A stretch of DNA of 64,000 nucleotides, taken from positions 1,364,001 to 1,428,000 of the forward strand of contig NZ_CP130060.1 in NCBI RefSeq assembly GCF_030644385.1. The letters run 5' to 3'. Below are positions 31,274 to 62,111 of this stretch, piece after piece (within the stretch, counting starts at the first letter, position 1; each line of letters starts with the position of its first letter). Below the pieces are notes generated by a model. It worked only from the letters and a program-made list of their open reading frames with translations, had not been told where the DNA came from and did no database searches. The translations under genes and the position numbers were made by a program. Source of the DNA: Stomatobaculum sp. F0698 (lineage in GTDB: Bacteria; Bacillota; Clostridia; Lachnospirales; Lachnospiraceae).

Positions 31274-31359
31274 TGCCGGCGACCGGGGTCGAACCGGTAC
31301 GGTCATTCCTGACCACAGGATTTTAAGTCCTGGGCGTCTGCCTATTCCGCCACGCCGGC
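31274..31359 (-). tRNA. tRNA-Leu(TAA)
   Basis: 86-nt type-II tRNA with a long variable arm. Acceptor GCCGGCG pairs with CGCCGGC, discriminator A; anticodon loop ACTTAAAAT gives TAA. The 3' CCA is not encoded. It is the last gene of the rRNA operon. Confidence 0.95.
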
Positions 31360-31383
31360 AAATAGCATCAACGCCTGATGCAG

Positions 31384-31457
31384 CGACCCGAAACGGACTT
31401 GAACCGTCGACCTCCGCCGTGACAGGGCGGCGCTCTAACCAACTGAGCCATCGGGCC
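31384..31457 (-). tRNA. tRNA-Asp(GTC)
   Basis: 74-nt tRNA. Acceptor GGCCCGA pairs with TCGGGTC (one G-U), discriminator G; anticodon loop CTGTCAC gives GTC. The 3' CCA is not encoded. Confidence 0.95.
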
Positions 31458-31461
31458 AAAA

Positions 31462-31534
31462 CTCCTCGTGTTGGACTCGAACCAACGACACCGCGGTTAA
31501 CAGCCGCGTGCTCTACCGACTGAGCTAACAAGGA
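31462..31534 (-). tRNA. tRNA-Asn(GTT)
   Basis: 73-nt tRNA. Acceptor TCCTTGT pairs with ACGAGGA, discriminator G; anticodon loop CTGTTAA between CGCGG and CCGCG gives GTT. The 3' CCA is not encoded. Confidence 0.95.
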
Positions 31535-31547
31535 ATATACCATAGAG

Positions 31548-31621
31548 TGGAGCTTCGGGGACTCGAACCCGGGACCGATCGGTTATGAGCCGACTGCTCT
31601 AACCAGCTGAGCTAAAGCTCC
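31548..31621 (-). tRNA. tRNA with CAT anticodon (Met elongator or Ile2)
   Basis: 74-nt tRNA. Acceptor GGAGCTT pairs with AAGCTCC, discriminator A; the anticodon loop CTCATAA gives CAT. The GGCTCATAACC stem-loop resembles the Ile2 (lysidine-modified) type of Firmicutes as much as elongator Met. It is not the initiator type, which begins with a mismatched C. Identity needs tRNA-specific models. Confidence 0.85.
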
Positions 31622-31644
31622 AAGGAGAGTTCCGAAAACTCTAG

Positions 31645-31716
31645 TGACCCCAACGAGGTTCGAACTCGTGTTACCGCCGTGAAAGGGCGATGTCTTAACC
31701 GCTTGACCATGGGGCC
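31645..31716 (-). tRNA. tRNA-Glu(TTC)
   Basis: 72-nt tRNA. Acceptor GGCCCCA pairs with TGGGGTC (one G-U), discriminator A; anticodon loop CTTTCAC gives TTC. It is the first tRNA after 23S. Confidence 0.95.
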
Positions 31717-31723
31717 ATCTTTA

Positions 31724-31747
31724 CACCCTGAAAACCGCACACAGAAT
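31724..31747 (-). other. 3' half of the pre-23S processing stem
   Basis: 24 bases just after the 23S 3' end are complementary, allowing G-U pairs, to 34829-34852 just before the 23S 5' end. They would close the long helix cut by RNase III to release pre-23S rRNA. Confidence 0.75.
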
Positions 31748-31777
31748 TCTATCTATTCATCTCTTTTCCCAAACCCT

Positions 31778-34672
<2,895 letters not shown>

Positions 34673-34828
34673 TTACATGTTCTCTAGCGTAAGAACATGC
34701 GGGTTGGTCAACTCTGCTCTCACAGAGTTACGTATTATTTACATTATAGACATGACTTTCGTCACATCTATCGGATACGACTTTCGTCGTATCACCTCGG
34801 ATGTCTAGATATTCTTAATTGAATATTC

Positions 34829-34852
34829 ATTCTGTATGCGATTTTCAAGGTG
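34829..34852 (-). other. 5' half of the pre-23S processing stem
   Basis: Complementary to 31724-31747 (read on opposite sides of 23S), so the transcript can fold into a long helix around 23S. It lies directly downstream of tRNA-Ala. Confidence 0.75.
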
Positions 34853-34857
34853 CAAAA

Positions 34858-34930
34858 TGGAGATGGAGAGATTCGAACTCTTGACCCCCTGCTTGCAAGG
34901 CAGGTGCTCTCCCAACTGAGCTACACCCCC
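34858..34930 (-). tRNA. tRNA-Ala(TGC)
   Basis: 73-nt tRNA. Acceptor GGGGGTG pairs with CATCTCC (two G-U), discriminator A; anticodon loop CTTGCAA between CCTGC and GCAGG gives TGC. It lies between 5S and 23S in the operon; tRNA-Ala in the 16S-23S spacer is common, but usually without 5S. Confidence 0.95.
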
Positions 34931-34938
34931 ATAATAAT

Positions 34939-35053
34939 CCGGCGCCCGCCTATTCTCCCATGCCGTTACCAGCATAGTACCTTCGGCCGTCTTCCTCTTA
35001 ACCGTCGTGTTCGGGATGGGAACGGGTGTTTCAAGAAGACGTATCGACACCGG
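34939..35053 (-). rRNA. rrf: 5S ribosomal RNA, located between 16S and tRNA-Ala
   Basis: About 115 nt, ends pairing CCGGTG/CGCCGG. The conserved interior CACCCGTTCCCATCCCGAAC and the segment GAAGGTACTATGCTGG are present. It follows 16S by about 60 bases and precedes tRNA-Ala by 8 bases. No second 5S lies after 23S, so this is the only copy in the operon. Confidence 0.95.
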
Positions 35054-35062
35054 AAATCCGGT

Positions 35063-35100
35063 GAACCTTTGATCAAAAACCAGACAGCACAAACAACCCT
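35063..35100 (-). other. 3' half of the pre-16S processing stem
   Basis: 38 bases between 16S and 5S that are complementary to 36795-36834 in the 16S leader. In RNA the two would pair over about 35 positions, giving the RNase III helix that frames 16S. Confidence 0.78.
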
Positions 35101-35108
35101 TACTTCTT

Positions 35109-36645
<1,537 letters not shown>

Positions 36646-36794
36646 AAGTTTGTTCGTTCCGGTCAAAATAACGTTGGTCTTTCTCAGTTATTTTACCCGT
36701 TATTACTTGGTTTGGTTCTTTTTTGAAATTCTTTTGGAAGCTCACGAACACATTCGAAAAATGTCCGCAAGCCCTCTGTTTTCACAGAGATTTC

Positions 36795-36834
36795 AGGGTT
36801 GTTTGTACTGTCTGATCTTTGATTTTCAAGGTTC
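36795..36834 (-). other. 5' half of the pre-16S processing stem
   Basis: Complementary to 35063-35100 on the far side of 16S. It lies between tRNA-Ser(GGA) and 16S, so processing would also separate that tRNA from pre-16S. Confidence 0.78.
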
Positions 36835-36854
36835 TTTGCCGAACGAGTCGGCAG

Positions 36855-36943
36855 CGCAGAAGGAGGGATTTGAACCCTCGCGCCGCTATTAACGACCTAC
36901 TCCCTTTCCAGGGGAGCCCCTTCAACCACTTGGGTACTTCTGC
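36855..36943 (-). tRNA. tRNA-Ser(GGA) in the rRNA leader
   Basis: 89-nt type-II tRNA with a long variable arm. Acceptor GCAGAAG pairs with CTTCTGC, discriminator G; anticodon loop CTGGAAA between CTCCC and GGGAG gives GGA. It sits about 210 bases before 16S and about 80 bases after the inner promoter, so it is the first gene of the operon. Confidence 0.95.
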
Positions 36944-57587: not shown

Positions 57588-58118
57588 ATGCGTATCACCA
57601 TTAGCGGAAGAAACATCGAACTGGGCGACAGACTGAAGAATCAGGTGAACAAAAAGCTCGGGAAACTCGAGAAATACTTTGCTCCCGAGACCGAGGCGCG
57701 CGTTGTTCTGAGCCGTCGGAAAGACGCCGAAATTATCGAGGTCACGATTCCGACGAAAACCGGATTTATCCGCGCCGAGGAAGCGACCGATGACTTCTTC
57801 GCATCCATCGATCTCGCCGAAGAGACCATTGAGCGCCAGATCAAGAAGTACAGAACCAAGCTGGTCGACAAGAAGCAGTCCGCACTTGCCTTCTCCGAGC
57901 TCTTCCTCGACGAGGGGGAGGATGAGGGCGAAGCGGAAATTCGCATCGTGAAGAACAAGAAGTTTGAATTGCAGCCCATGAACCCCGAGGAGGCTTGTCT
58001 CCAGATGGAAATGCTGGGACATGCGTTCTTCGTCTTCTTAAACGGCGACAGCGGTGCCGTAAACGTGGTGTATAAGCGCCGCGACGGCAGCTACGGCCTG
58101 ATTGAGCCGAGCATCTGA
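57588..58118 (+). CDS. hpf: Ribosome hibernation promoting factor, long form
   Basis: Binds the 30S decoding site and joins 70S ribosomes into inactive 100S dimers when growth slows. 176 residues, the long form. The N-terminal RaiA/S30AE domain (about 1-100) begins MRITISGRNIELGDRLKNQV, and the C-terminal dimerisation domain (about 118-176) contains FVFLNGDSGAVNVVYKRRDG. The start is preceded by AAAGGAG ten bases ahead. It is one of three plus-strand genes here and lies opposite secA, its usual neighbour in Firmicutes. Confidence 0.95.
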   Translation: MRITISGRNIELGDRLKNQVNKKLGKLEKYFAPETEARVVLSRRKDAEIIEVTIPTKTGFIRAEEATDDFFASIDLAEETIERQIKKYRTKLVDKKQSALAFSELFLDEGEDEGEAEIRIVKNKKFELQPMNPEEACLQMEMLGHAFFVFLNGDSGAVNVVYKRRDGSYGLIEPSI

Positions 58119-58212: not shown

Positions 58213-60441
58213 TTACGGCGCAACCGCCTTACGCTTCTCGCCCGGAACGACCCAGCCGAGCGCGCGGCGCTTTGCCTTGATGTCCTCAACCAGCTTCTCT
58301 GCGAGCGCCTTCGGATCGGTGTCGACGTGCATCACCGAACCCAGGGTCTCGCGGGTTCCCTCTTTCAGGAACTCAATGACATTCTTCGAGCCGTGAATCT
58401 GTGCCTCCACGCAGTGATAGGAGTTGATTCCCATCAGCCGAAAGCCGAGCGATGCGTCGATGCCCTTCTCATTGCTCCACTCCGGAGAGGTGAAGGCAAA
58501 GGGCATGTCCTTTAAGTCCTTGCCGAACTCATTCGCAATGCCCGCAAAAATACCGGAGGAACGGGTGTTATCGATGCACTCGCCGACATGCCAAACCGGC
58601 GGAAGGTCGGGCGAGAGGAAGTTCCGAAGCGATTCTCCCGCTTTCGGCAGTCCGTCCTTCATGTTGCAGTAGCCCATCTTCATGAGCGGGAAGGAAACAC
58701 AGCCGTTGGTCAGGATGAGAATATTGTTCTGCAAGAGGATATCCGCGACATCCAACGCGGTTTTCTCGTAAAGCACCTTCGGATTGTTGCAGCCGACCAT
58801 GTTCACAATGCCGAGAATTTCACCGGACTTCACAGCCTCCGCGAGCGGTGCCATGCTGCCGAAACGCTTGTGGACATACTCGACCGAGAAGCCGACTTCG
58901 GCATCCACCTCGTAGGGCGGAATGTAGACCGGAACACCCTTTCTGTTTTCAAAGCTCTCGATGGCGCGCTTCACAATGCGCTCCGCGAGCTCTCTGGTCT
59001 CACCGATGTTCGAATGGCGGTGATCGTACTCAAAGCGCTCCGCACCGGGCAGACGCGCCGACTCGGAAGTCGTAATGACGGTCGTTTGGAAGCACTTTGC
59101 GACTTCCATGATGGACGGGAACACGTCCTGGACATCCGCAATCCAGAGATCCAGAGCACCGGTACCGAGCACCAGCTCCGCGGAGACCGCATTGCTGAGC
59201 GGAATCACGCCGGCGTAGCGGTACATCGCCGAGAGTCCGGAGCAGCAAATGCCGTAGAAGCGTATGCCCTTTGCACCCGCCTTCTTTGCGAGTTCAATGA
59301 ACGCCTCCTCCTGACCGACCTTGACAATCTGACTGACCAGGGTGGGCAGATGGCCGTGCACCGCAATGTTCACATACCCCTTCTGAAGGGCGCCGATGTT
59401 CACCTTCGAGGTCACGCGGTCGCCGACACCGAAGAGACTGTCGGTCGCAATCGCGGTCGAGACGACACCCGAAAAGGTAAAGGCAAGGCCGCAGCGCAGG
59501 AACTGCTGCATGATACTTCTCCAGTCGCCGTCCGTGCCGACACCGCTCTTATGGTAGGCCTCAAAGACCTCGTGGTAGGCGCTGATCGGAATGATGTCCA
59601 AATCCTTCCAGACCTTTTGGCGCTCCGCCGGGGCACAGGCCTTGATGACCTCGTAGTCGTCCGGAACGGTTCTGGACATATCCTCGAGCAGCTTGTCCGC
59701 GAGTTCGGAGGCAATGCGCTTAATGCTTCTTCTCTCGGTCTTAATGCCGAAGGCCTTTGCCGTATCGCGAATCTTCTGCTGGCCGAGAATCGGAAGATCG
59801 AGCTTCCCCTCCGCGGCCCACTTGAGCGACAGAATGACCTCTCTGCCGTGCATGCCGTGCTGCGCGGCACCCGCTGCCGCAGAGCGAAGCAGGTTTCTCG
59901 CGACAATCAAATCCGCATCCGCGCCGCAGATGCCCTTCGGGCTCTTCGGCGTGATCTTACATGGTCCCATGTTGCAGATTTTGCAGCAGATGCCCGCGAG
60001 ACCGAAGCTACACTGCGGCTTCTGCTTGTCAAAGCGGTCAAAGGTCGTGTCAAAGCCGAGCTGTTCCGCGCGGAGCAACATCTCACGCACGGCCGGGTCC
60101 GGCGTGTTGTCAATGACATCCTGCTTCGAGGGGAAGGTTTTCTTATACTCGGCGACCGCATTCATGTAGTCGCGGATAAACTCGTTCTCATCCTGCTCAT
60201 CCTGATGATCCGCCTTAACAACCACCGTCGGCACACCGTGCTTGTCAAAGCCGATGATGTTTCTGTGGCTGTGGATGTGCGCGGGGGCATCGGCATCGTG
60301 TTCGTGTGTATGCGCATGGGTGTGCCCGTGCTCGTGTGCGTGCTCGTGCTCATGGGTGTGCTCGTGGGTGTGCTCGTGCTCGTGGGTGTGCTCATGTGCA
60401 TGCACATGCTCGTGGTTCTGTCCTTTTTTCTCTCCGCTCAT
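58213..60441 (-). CDS. Carbon-monoxide dehydrogenase homologue (CooS family), altered active site, His-rich N-terminus
   Basis: 742 residues from ATG 60441 (GAGG five bases ahead). The family oxidises CO with a Ni-Fe-S cluster C fed by clusters B and D. Residues 10-59 hold 23 His, mostly alternating, a likely Ni/Zn-binding tail not usual in CooS. The B/D-cluster Cys are all there (C144, C152, C153, C156, C161, C172). Of the cluster-C ligands, VHGH (362-364), GICC (399-400), C551, C581 and C622 are present, but the conserved Cys of the DVQC motif is Asp439 (ADVQDVFPS). By hand alignment the catalytic Lys near the C-terminus is Arg697 and two His of the proton path are missing. CO oxidation is therefore doubtful. 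No cooC, cooF or acetyl-CoA synthase gene is nearby. Confidence 0.85.
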   Translation of the reverse strand: MSGEKKGQNHEHVHAHEHTHEHEHTHEHTHEHEHAHEHGHTHAHTHEHDADAPAHIHSHRNIIGFDKHGVPTVVVKADHQDEQDENEFIRDYMNAVAEYKKTFPSKQDVIDNTPDPAVREMLLRAEQLGFDTTFDRFDKQKPQCSFGLAGICCKICNMGPCKITPKSPKGICGADADLIVARNLLRSAAAGAAQHGMHGREVILSLKWAAEGKLDLPILGQQKIRDTAKAFGIKTERRSIKRIASELADKLLEDMSRTVPDDYEVIKACAPAERQKVWKDLDIIPISAYHEVFEAYHKSGVGTDGDWRSIMQQFLRCGLAFTFSGVVSTAIATDSLFGVGDRVTSKVNIGALQKGYVNIAVHGHLPTLVSQIVKVGQEEAFIELAKKAGAKGIRFYGICCSGLSAMYRYAGVIPLSNAVSAELVLGTGALDLWIADVQDVFPSIMEVAKCFQTTVITTSESARLPGAERFEYDHRHSNIGETRELAERIVKRAIESFENRKGVPVYIPPYEVDAEVGFSVEYVHKRFGSMAPLAEAVKSGEILGIVNMVGCNNPKVLYEKTALDVADILLQNNILILTNGCVSFPLMKMGYCNMKDGLPKAGESLRNFLSPDLPPVWHVGECIDNTRSSGIFAGIANEFGKDLKDMPFAFTSPEWSNEKGIDASLGFRLMGINSYHCVEAQIHGSKNVIEFLKEGTRETLGSVMHVDTDPKALAEKLVEDIKAKRRALGWVVPGEKRKAVAP

Positions 60442-60620: not shown

Positions 60621-62111
60621 TCAGGAGAATAAAATCTCGCGGACCTGCTCCTTCATCTCTTCCGGCTTGCAGCTGCGCGTGTGACGCACCTCCGCATTCC
60701 GAATCTCCTCGACCGCCGGCGGGAAGGGAATTCCCGCTTTCTCACGGAGCTCATCCAGCACCGCAAAGTCGTCGAGTGCGCTCACATCGCCCGCAATTGC
60801 CTCCATGACGGCGCGGGAGAACTTAAACGGACTCGCCGTACTCGCAATGACGGTCGGCTTTGTGTCGCCGCTCTTTTTCCGGTAGTCTTCGTAGACCTTG
60901 GAGGCGACCGCCGTATGCGTATCAATCACGTAGCCGGTCTTCTCATAGAGCGAGCGAATGCGCTCCGCCACTTCCTCCTGCGTCGCAAAACCGCCGGTAA
61001 AGTCCGCCATGGCAGCCCGCATTTCCGCGCTCAGCGCGTACTTGCCGCCGCTCTGCAGTTCCTCCATGAGCGCCTTGGTTTTCGCCGCATCACAACCCGC
61101 GCTCAAGTACAGCAGGCGCTCCAGATTGCTCGATACGAGGATGTCCATGGACGGAGACGTTGTCAGAATGAACTCGCGATTCTTGTCGTAGACACCGGTC
61201 TCAAAGAAGTCAAAGAGCACCTTGTTGTCGTTCGACGCGCAAATCAGCTTGTCAATCGGCAGCCCCATGCGCTTTGCGAAGTAAGCCGCGAGGATATTGC
61301 CGAAGTTTCCGGTCGGCACGCAGACATTGATCTTCTCGCCCTCGGCAATCTTTTCCTCCTTCAGGAGTTCCAGGTAAGCGTGGACATAGTAGACAATCTG
61401 CGGCACCAGGCGGCCGATGTTAATCGAGTTTGCGCTGGAGAGCTGCACCTTTTTTGCCGCGAGCTCCGCCTCAAACGCGCGGTCCCCGAAAATCTGCTTG
61501 ACCGCGGTCTGCGCATCGTCAAAATTGCCCTCGATGCTCACGACCGCCGTGTTATCGCCCTTTTGCGTGATCATCTGGAGTTCCTGGAAGCGGCTCACGC
61601 CGCCCTTCGGATAGAAGACCACAATGCCGGTGCCCGGGACATCCGCAAAGCCCGCCATAGCCGCCTTGCCGGTGTCACCGCTGGTCGCGGTCAGAATCTC
61701 AATCTTGTTGGTGACGCCGTTCTTTTTTGCCGCCGTGGTCATGAGATAGGGCAAAATCGAGAGCGCCATATCTTTGAACGCAATGGTTTTACCGTGGAAG
61801 AGCTCGAGGTAATAAGCATCGTCCGCGAAGGTGAGCGGCGCAATTTCGGGCGTGTCGAACTTCTCGTCGTAAGCGCCCTGAATGCAGGCGCGAAGCTCCT
61901 CTTCGCTGTAATCGGTGAGCAGAAGACGCATCACGCGATAGGCCGCTTCCTGATAAGAAGCATCCTTTAATTCCGGAAGCGCAAAGTCGAAGCGCGGAAT
62001 TCGCTCCGGCATGAAGAGTCCCCCGTCTTTGGCAAGACCCTTGAGCACAGCCTCCGAAGCCGTGCAACCGGTCTCGCCGCCCCGCGTGCTACTGTAAAGC
62101 AATTCACCCAT
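60621..62111 (-). CDS. thrC: Threonine synthase
   Basis: PLP enzyme that converts O-phosphohomoserine to threonine. 496 residues, the long (class I) form. An N-terminal segment carries STRGGETGCTASEAVLKGLA near 8-27. The PLP lysine is in FHGKTIAFKDMALSILPYLM near 109-128 and the phosphate-binding loop is TATSGDTGKAAMAGF near 142-156. NSINIGRLVPQIVYYVHAYL follows near 230-249. With aspartate kinase, the ACT regulator and hom it belongs to threonine synthesis, though it is in a separate unit. It starts 41 bases after the TPM-domain gene, so it may share that message, and has its own terminator. Confidence 0.95.
   Translation of the reverse strand: MGELLYSSTRGGETGCTASEAVLKGLAKDGGLFMPERIPRFDFALPELKDASYQEAAYRVMRLLLTDYSEEELRACIQGAYDEKFDTPEIAPLTFADDAYYLELFHGKTIAFKDMALSILPYLMTTAAKKNGVTNKIEILTATSGDTGKAAMAGFADVPGTGIVVFYPKGGVSRFQELQMITQKGDNTAVVSIEGNFDDAQTAVKQIFGDRAFEAELAAKKVQLSSANSINIGRLVPQIVYYVHAYLELLKEEKIAEGEKINVCVPTGNFGNILAAYFAKRMGLPIDKLICASNDNKVLFDFFETGVYDKNREFILTTSPSMDILVSSNLERLLYLSAGCDAAKTKALMEELQSGGKYALSAEMRAAMADFTGGFATQEEVAERIRSLYEKTGYVIDTHTAVASKVYEDYRKKSGDTKPTVIASTASPFKFSRAVMEAIAGDVSALDDFAVLDELREKAGIPFPPAVEEIRNAEVRHTRSCKPEEMKEQVREILFS

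Follow-up and report, generated by a model that had tools for sequence, protein, structure and literature searches.

A clade B carbon monoxide dehydrogenase homologue in Stomatobaculum with an aspartate at a C-cluster ligand position and a predicted role in sulfur acquisition

Among the homologues of carbon monoxide dehydrogenase (CODH), structural group B-1 of clade B is marked by a His-rich N-terminus and by a carboxylate residue, Asp or Glu, that takes the place of the second C-cluster Cys (Inoue 2019; PMC6344411, here and below as far as the accessible part of that article goes). The role suggested there for the NitT/TauT transporter that accompanies most relatives is metal import for nickel insertion, whereas we propose sulfur acquisition. 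A 2026 study, in its accessible portion, links clade B to transporters, considers its function not deducible and reports no characterised member (PMC13056359), and a Megasphaera CODH in a cysteine-synthase context appears in part of another article as a minor type to which no function is given (PMC11338639). A partial search of the literature yielded no published link between CODH and sulfur that we recognised; the sulfur reading of clade B function developed here appears to be new, the sequence class itself having been described in 2019. Three other systems invite comparison. CooS-V of Carboxydothermus hydrogenoformans (clade D) is also a CODH scaffold short of one C-cluster Cys, but there Cys295 is replaced by Glu and the cluster is a hybrid Fe/S/O one, at another position and in another clade (PMC9311411). 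Methylthio-alkane reductase, according to the part of its description available, is a nitrogenase-like enzyme in which a small-gas metalloenzyme scaffold scavenges organic sulfur anaerobically; its fold is unrelated, and its activity is proven whereas that of clade B is predicted (PMC12552129). The Staphylococcus aureus operon NWMN_0115-0119 is, in the accessible text, repressed 11.5-34 fold by sulfide and a member of the CymR regulon, and its fifth gene is labelled formate dehydrogenase rather than acyl-CoA-dehydrogenase-like (PMC5480029). Its gene order suggests that it encodes the same transporter family as Staphylococcus-like loci discussed below; it shares with clade B this putative transporter, here under sulfide and CymR control, but contains no CODH, and the homologous loci carry an acyl-CoA-dehydrogenase-like ORF.

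The gene studied here lies in a window of 64,000 nucleotides (the whole stretch of DNA analysed) from the single-contig genome of Stomatobaculum sp. F0698. It runs on the minus strand from an ATG at 60441, preceded by GAGG, to a stop at 58213. Its product matched the CODH chains of the PDB (best E = 1.4e-124) and passed both the NCBIfam CODH model (502.6 bits for a cut-off of 478) and Pfam Prismane. Its main features, the single residues being numbered against CODH-II by alignment, are the following:

58213..60441, minus strand: clade B (group B-1) CODH-like protein, 742 aa, from the ORF, PDB and NCBIfam matches and the tree
60265..60414, minus strand: His-rich N-terminal segment, residues 10-59, predicted to bind metal (23 His in residues 1-60)
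59857..59859, minus strand: His195, at the position of His93, the acid-base histidine, conserved
59125..59127, minus strand: Asp439, codon GAC, at the position of Cys333
58576..58581, minus strand: Glu621-Cys622; Cys622 is at the Ni-ligand position (Cys526), and Glu621 is specific to the group with Asp or Glu at Cys333 (D/E group)
58465..58467, minus strand: Lys659, at the position of Lys563, the catalytic lysine, conserved

A preliminary description of this gene, made from the sequence alone, had read residue 439 as Asp and had considered the B- and D-cluster cysteines and five C-cluster positions intact. The alignment with CODH-II bears this out: the codon facing Cys333 is GAC, five of the six C-cluster ligands are kept (H364, C400, C551, C581 and C622 for His261, Cys295, Cys446, Cys476 and Cys526, respectively), and the D-cluster cysteines (C144 and the next cluster cysteines) as well as those of the B-cluster are present. 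The protein thus departs from the five Cys and one His that characterise the C-cluster of canonical Ni-CODHs (clades E/F) by the change of Cys333 to Asp, and no Cys adjoins residue 439 in the sequence. An extra Cys of clade B (C592, CODH-II position 487) is found in at least 97% of 110 rows, including those that keep Cys333. By contrast, the earlier assignment of the catalytic lysine to Arg697 was a misalignment, since Lys563 of CODH-II aligns with K659, within the motif EWSNEK, a lysine present in 77/77 named relatives. The replacement of two proton-path histidines by Glu and Leu was read correctly: E201 and L204 stand at the positions of His99 and His102. In the same alignment the solved chain 6elq, which we take to be CODH-IV, has D and E at positions 99 and 102. 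CODH-IV is described as active (PMC9311411). Because 6elq also lacks both histidines, these changes are no argument against CO chemistry. Two further traits, the His-rich N-terminus and E621 beside the Ni-ligand Cys C622, had been omitted from the preliminary description.

That description had also called for a CODH tree, and both alignment and tree now place Asp at the Cys333 position and the protein within clade B. The tree (76 rows, a quick method with SH-aLRT as the only support, several long branches being flagged among other CODHs) gives a support of 100 to the D/E group, of 100 to its sister group keeping Cys333 (10 rows) and of 99 to both together; the 44 rows of the D/E group comprise the window protein, 25 hand-picked rows of the 77 named ones and 18 further D/E rows. 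The window protein is therefore a member of clade B and of structural group B-1, both hallmarks of which it possesses, together with a type II D-cluster and the conserved His and Lys; we found no difference from this group in the protein, as far as the available part of its description allows comparison (PMC6344411). The missing Cys is accordingly no novelty of this gene but a trait already described for group B-1 (Inoue 2019). It is also constant: out of 80 named loci, 77 had a readable CODH ORF (L072, L119 and L127, where no ORF was called, were dropped), with D at the Cys333 position in 73 and E in 4, and since all 77 carry D or E this residue is not a matter of chance. The residue before the Ni-ligand Cys is Glu in at least 97% of 97 D/E rows, Gly in 13/13 Cys333 rows and Ser in 15/22 other CODHs, so that in the D/E group two new carboxylates occupy or adjoin ligand positions of the cluster. 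The median number of His before the first cluster motif is 11 in D rows (91), 10 in E rows (6) and 1 in Cys rows (12), two rows without that motif having been dropped. Two D-type genes, those of L162 and L277, have no His-rich tail, and in L162 a CooC-like gene adjoins; the tail and this CooC-like gene suggest that nickel still matters. The sister group includes Calderihabitans maritimus, shows 76% identity to a Moorella thermoacetica protein and, by the names Calderihabitans and Moorella, fits group B-4 of Inoue. It shares with the window protein its clade (SH-aLRT 99) and, with the D/E group, the same transporter, but retains Cys333, has no His-rich tail and has cysK directly adjacent.

In its own locus the window gene is an orphan. 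Its neighbours resemble housekeeping genes; neither a transporter nor a sulfur gene is among them, and no riboswitch was found nearby:

60621..62111, minus strand: upstream neighbour ORF, presumably threonine-synthase-like; no transporter or sulfur gene adjoining
57588..58118, plus strand: downstream convergent neighbour ORF, which we take to be ribosome-hibernation-factor-like

In a relative of the same genus (L171) the CODH gene likewise has a 496-aa ORF upstream. The absence of acetyl-CoA synthase and cooC genes, noted before for the vicinity, extends to the whole genome (2.15 Mb, one contig), where neither PF03598 nor a full-length CooC was found, a CooC-like query giving a weak partial match (E 2.6e-6 over 64 residues). 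The transporter substrate-binding protein (SBP) found beside most relatives had no match in this genome either. The same genome contains one good CysK match (66%), a second Prismane-family gene (571 aa, HCP-sized; L001) and a NIR_SIR ORF that is the third of an AsrABC-like trio (G000:C1:576658-579484, or L278:7658-10485), the first two genes of which we take to be AsrA and AsrB. Within the genus, NIR_SIR occurs in 2/2 genomes with a clade B CODH (including G005) and in 0/5 without it (p 0.048), three of these five being drafts of 82-95% completeness. As the transporter was not found, the role of the protein in this genome rests on its clade membership, the AsrABC-like reductase and CysK.

The clade as a whole provides a much richer context. 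Neighbours within five genes were identified by BLAST, using protein families drawn from the loci themselves, and counted without the window gene; the counts for named loci are lower bounds because their contigs are short, and the 40 control contexts were taken in list order, not at random, from 70 places of other clades. The SBP of an SsuA-like ABC transporter was found in 64/77 named and 15/18 further D/E loci, that is, 79/95 pooled (L096, a named locus, shares its genome with G368, and G368 is not one of the 18), and in 10/10 Cys333 sister loci, 9 of which had been found through the SBP and are thus biased towards this link, vs 0/40 loci of other clades. CysK or MetY were detected in 9/77, 6/18, 10/10 and 0/40 loci, respectively (Fisher p = 0.005 for 15/95 D/E loci vs 0/40 controls, related loci being counted as independent), with cysK in all ten sister loci; the reference sets were clade B neighbours, which may bias these counts towards clade B, and matched elsewhere at 41-73% identity. 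Rrf2 occurred in 6/77, 1/18, 0/10 and 1/40 loci, and CooC in 0/77, 1/18, 0/10 and 20/40. Searching 299 genomes with the SBP returned 16 matches; among the 13 whose surroundings were fetched, 10 adjoin a clade B CODH, one (L151) lies by an acyl-CoA-dehydrogenase-like ORF and two on short contigs (L152, L161) have neither partner. A search of 398 genomes with the CODH only gave 15 loci, 14 of them of the sister type (13 checked as Cys333), and in 13/14 a CysK ORF adjoins the CODH, the fourteenth being L276, where parts of both share one ORF. Five Lachnoanaerobaculum-type loci have no transporter.

Several loci tie the CODH gene to sulfur metabolism more closely. In L094 a single directon reads cysK-metY-Rrf2-SBP-permease-ATPase-CODH, and L101, L102, L079 and L068 combine sulfur genes and CODH in other orders. 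L160 has a same-strand run, metI-metC-cysK-CODH-SBP-permease-ATPase (metI and metC being type names), whose genes are separated by no more than some 100 bases and which is preceded, at a distance of 51 bases, by a SAM riboswitch (87.5 bits); riboswitch and metI/metC-type pair recur in L276, of the same genus code, and sulfur riboswitches were absent from the other 27 of the 29 loci scanned. The Pseudobutyrivibrio locus L282/L096 unites CODH and transporter with CysD/CysN-like genes, a sulfite reductase and TusA-, ThiF-, JAB-, HemC-, CobA/HemD- and Met8-like genes followed by MetY and CysK, several of these names having been assigned by reading the sequence. In L154 and L156 NIR_SIR and a ThiF-like gene are divergent from cysK-CODH. 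At the genome level, NIR_SIR was present in 15/22 D/E, 9/10 sister and 4/14 comparison genomes, some of them related and some drafts; G208, one of the 14, is not a clean negative because it holds a 155-residue clade B-like fragment. The idea that the clade B protein is itself the sole sulfite reductase finds no support in this distribution, and, since 7/22 D/E genomes have no NIR_SIR, the enzyme must be able to work without a sulfite reductase at its side.

On balance we lean towards the view that the window protein is a clade B CODH-fold metalloenzyme serving sulfur acquisition rather than CO oxidation. The support consists of its family and clade, the ligand change, the conservation of His, Lys and the Ni ligand, and sulfur gene neighbourhoods that recur across the clade. 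It further includes the sulfide and CymR control of the S. aureus operon, the acyl-CoA-dehydrogenase-like partner of the transporter family in Bacilli, the distribution of NIR_SIR within the genus, and 41 SBP columns that have one residue in at least 90% of sequences whichever of the three partner groups is considered (77, 10 and 17 sequences). Against a sulfur role speak the orphan state of the window gene, the transporter-less Lachnoanaerobaculum-type loci, the presence of CysK or MetY in only 15/95 D/E loci, the non-independence of related loci, the rarity of sulfur riboswitches, an SBP score below the SsuA cut-off (131.3 vs 163.5 bits), the formate dehydrogenase label in the S. aureus operon and the signs of metal import discussed below. 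A CODH fold with another role, as the preliminary description had it, remains the best reading, for a different reason, namely the clade-wide sulfur gene context. The enzyme would free reduced sulfur from a small sulfur compound, which most relatives would take up through a sulfonate-type ABC transporter, and its product would feed cysteine and methionine synthesis. This product is predicted to be either sulfide, used directly by CysK or MetY, which the seven D/E genomes without NIR_SIR favour at least in their own case, or sulfite, subsequently reduced by a sirohaem or AsrABC reductase. The cluster probably still holds nickel, with the His-rich N-terminus taking over the part of CooC, and may be retuned by Asp439 and perhaps Glu621. 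The imported compound would reach the C-cluster site, where the kept His and Lys would give protons and the Ni/Fe pair, which handles CO2 by two electrons in CODH, would cleave a sulfur-containing analogue in a two-electron reduction in place of an O2-dependent step. We advance only tentatively, as a specific scheme with appreciably less in its favour than the general role, that clade B has turned the CODH scaffold into an O2-independent desulfurising reductase, whose Ni,Fe cluster, with Asp439 as a carboxylate ligand and Glu621 by the Ni ligand, would cleave an imported sulfonate or other small CO2-like sulfur compound in anaerobes; in aerobic Bacilli the equivalent task would fall to a flavin oxygenase that accompanies this transporter. 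If true, this would be a CODH-family enzyme beyond CO/CO2 and N-O chemistry, outside which we know of no earlier member of the family, and a candidate route for O2-free sulfur gain by fermenting anaerobes of gut and rumen. The sulfur linkage makes the open question of clade B function testable, and the label 'carbon monoxide dehydrogenase' in gut genomes may mislead.

The strongest competitor, which we nevertheless consider unlikely, is a working Ni-CODH for which the ABC transporter imports nickel and the His-rich tail loads it, CO oxidation giving electrons. In its favour, only one of the six C-cluster ligands is changed and the catalytic His and Lys persist, the tail resembles Ni chaperones, and a CooC-like gene adjoins the tail-less D-type gene of L162. 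Metal import was proposed by Inoue (2019), and 3un6, an S. aureus protein that is the best solved relative of the SBP, is called metal-binding in the accessible part of that work (PMC6344411). In Bacilli, where the SBP occurs in 18/250 genomes, a protein of the Pfam 'nickel responsive SCO4226-like' family (two members scanned) accompanies the transporter in 14 of the 17 loci examined, which fits nickel import. However, in the same 17/17 loci (L241-L256, L151) the transporter family pairs with an acyl-CoA-dehydrogenase-like ORF instead of a CODH, a partner to which the O2-dependent step would fall, and nickel supply leaves cysK, metY, the SAM riboswitch, CymR control and the sulfite reductase loci unexplained. 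In two of these Bacilli loci, L244 and L249, MetY or CysK are also nearby.

That CO oxidation supplies low-potential electrons to sulfite reduction in sulfur assimilation seems improbable to us. Such a role would accommodate the sulfur neighbourhoods, the full catalytic set of the sister group and the co-occurrence of sulfite reductase and CODH in the window genus, but it would make a sulfonate-type transporter superfluous, and it agrees poorly with the lack of NIR_SIR in 7/22 D/E genomes and with the altered cluster ligand of the D/E group. An HCP-like or CooS-V-like redox enzyme for hydroxylamine or stress chemistry, a comparison drawn in the preliminary description and lent some colour by CooS-V, where one ligand change makes the C-cluster an Fe/S/O hybrid (PMC9311411), is rejected as very improbable because both markers of those proteins, a Glu at the Cys295 position and a Glu two residues before the lysine (PMC6344411, accessible part), are Cys400 and Asn657 in the window protein, which alters Cys333 instead, while its genome has another, HCP-sized Prismane-family gene and the gene context is unfitting.

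Some further observations concern the loci themselves. In L276 a single ORF (L276:9149-10840) has a CysK-like start and a CODH-like end, either a fusion or an assembly fault. Two families of small proteins, f3 (~103 aa) and f4 (~130 aa), predicted by eye to be membrane proteins and with no Pfam or NCBIfam family above cut-off, lie near the CODH in 24/77 and 23/77 named loci (L059, L061, L068, L083 and others). Elsewhere in the window, in the rRNA operon at 31274-36943 on the minus strand, the 5S gene does not follow 23S but lies, with a tRNA gene after it, between 16S and 23S.
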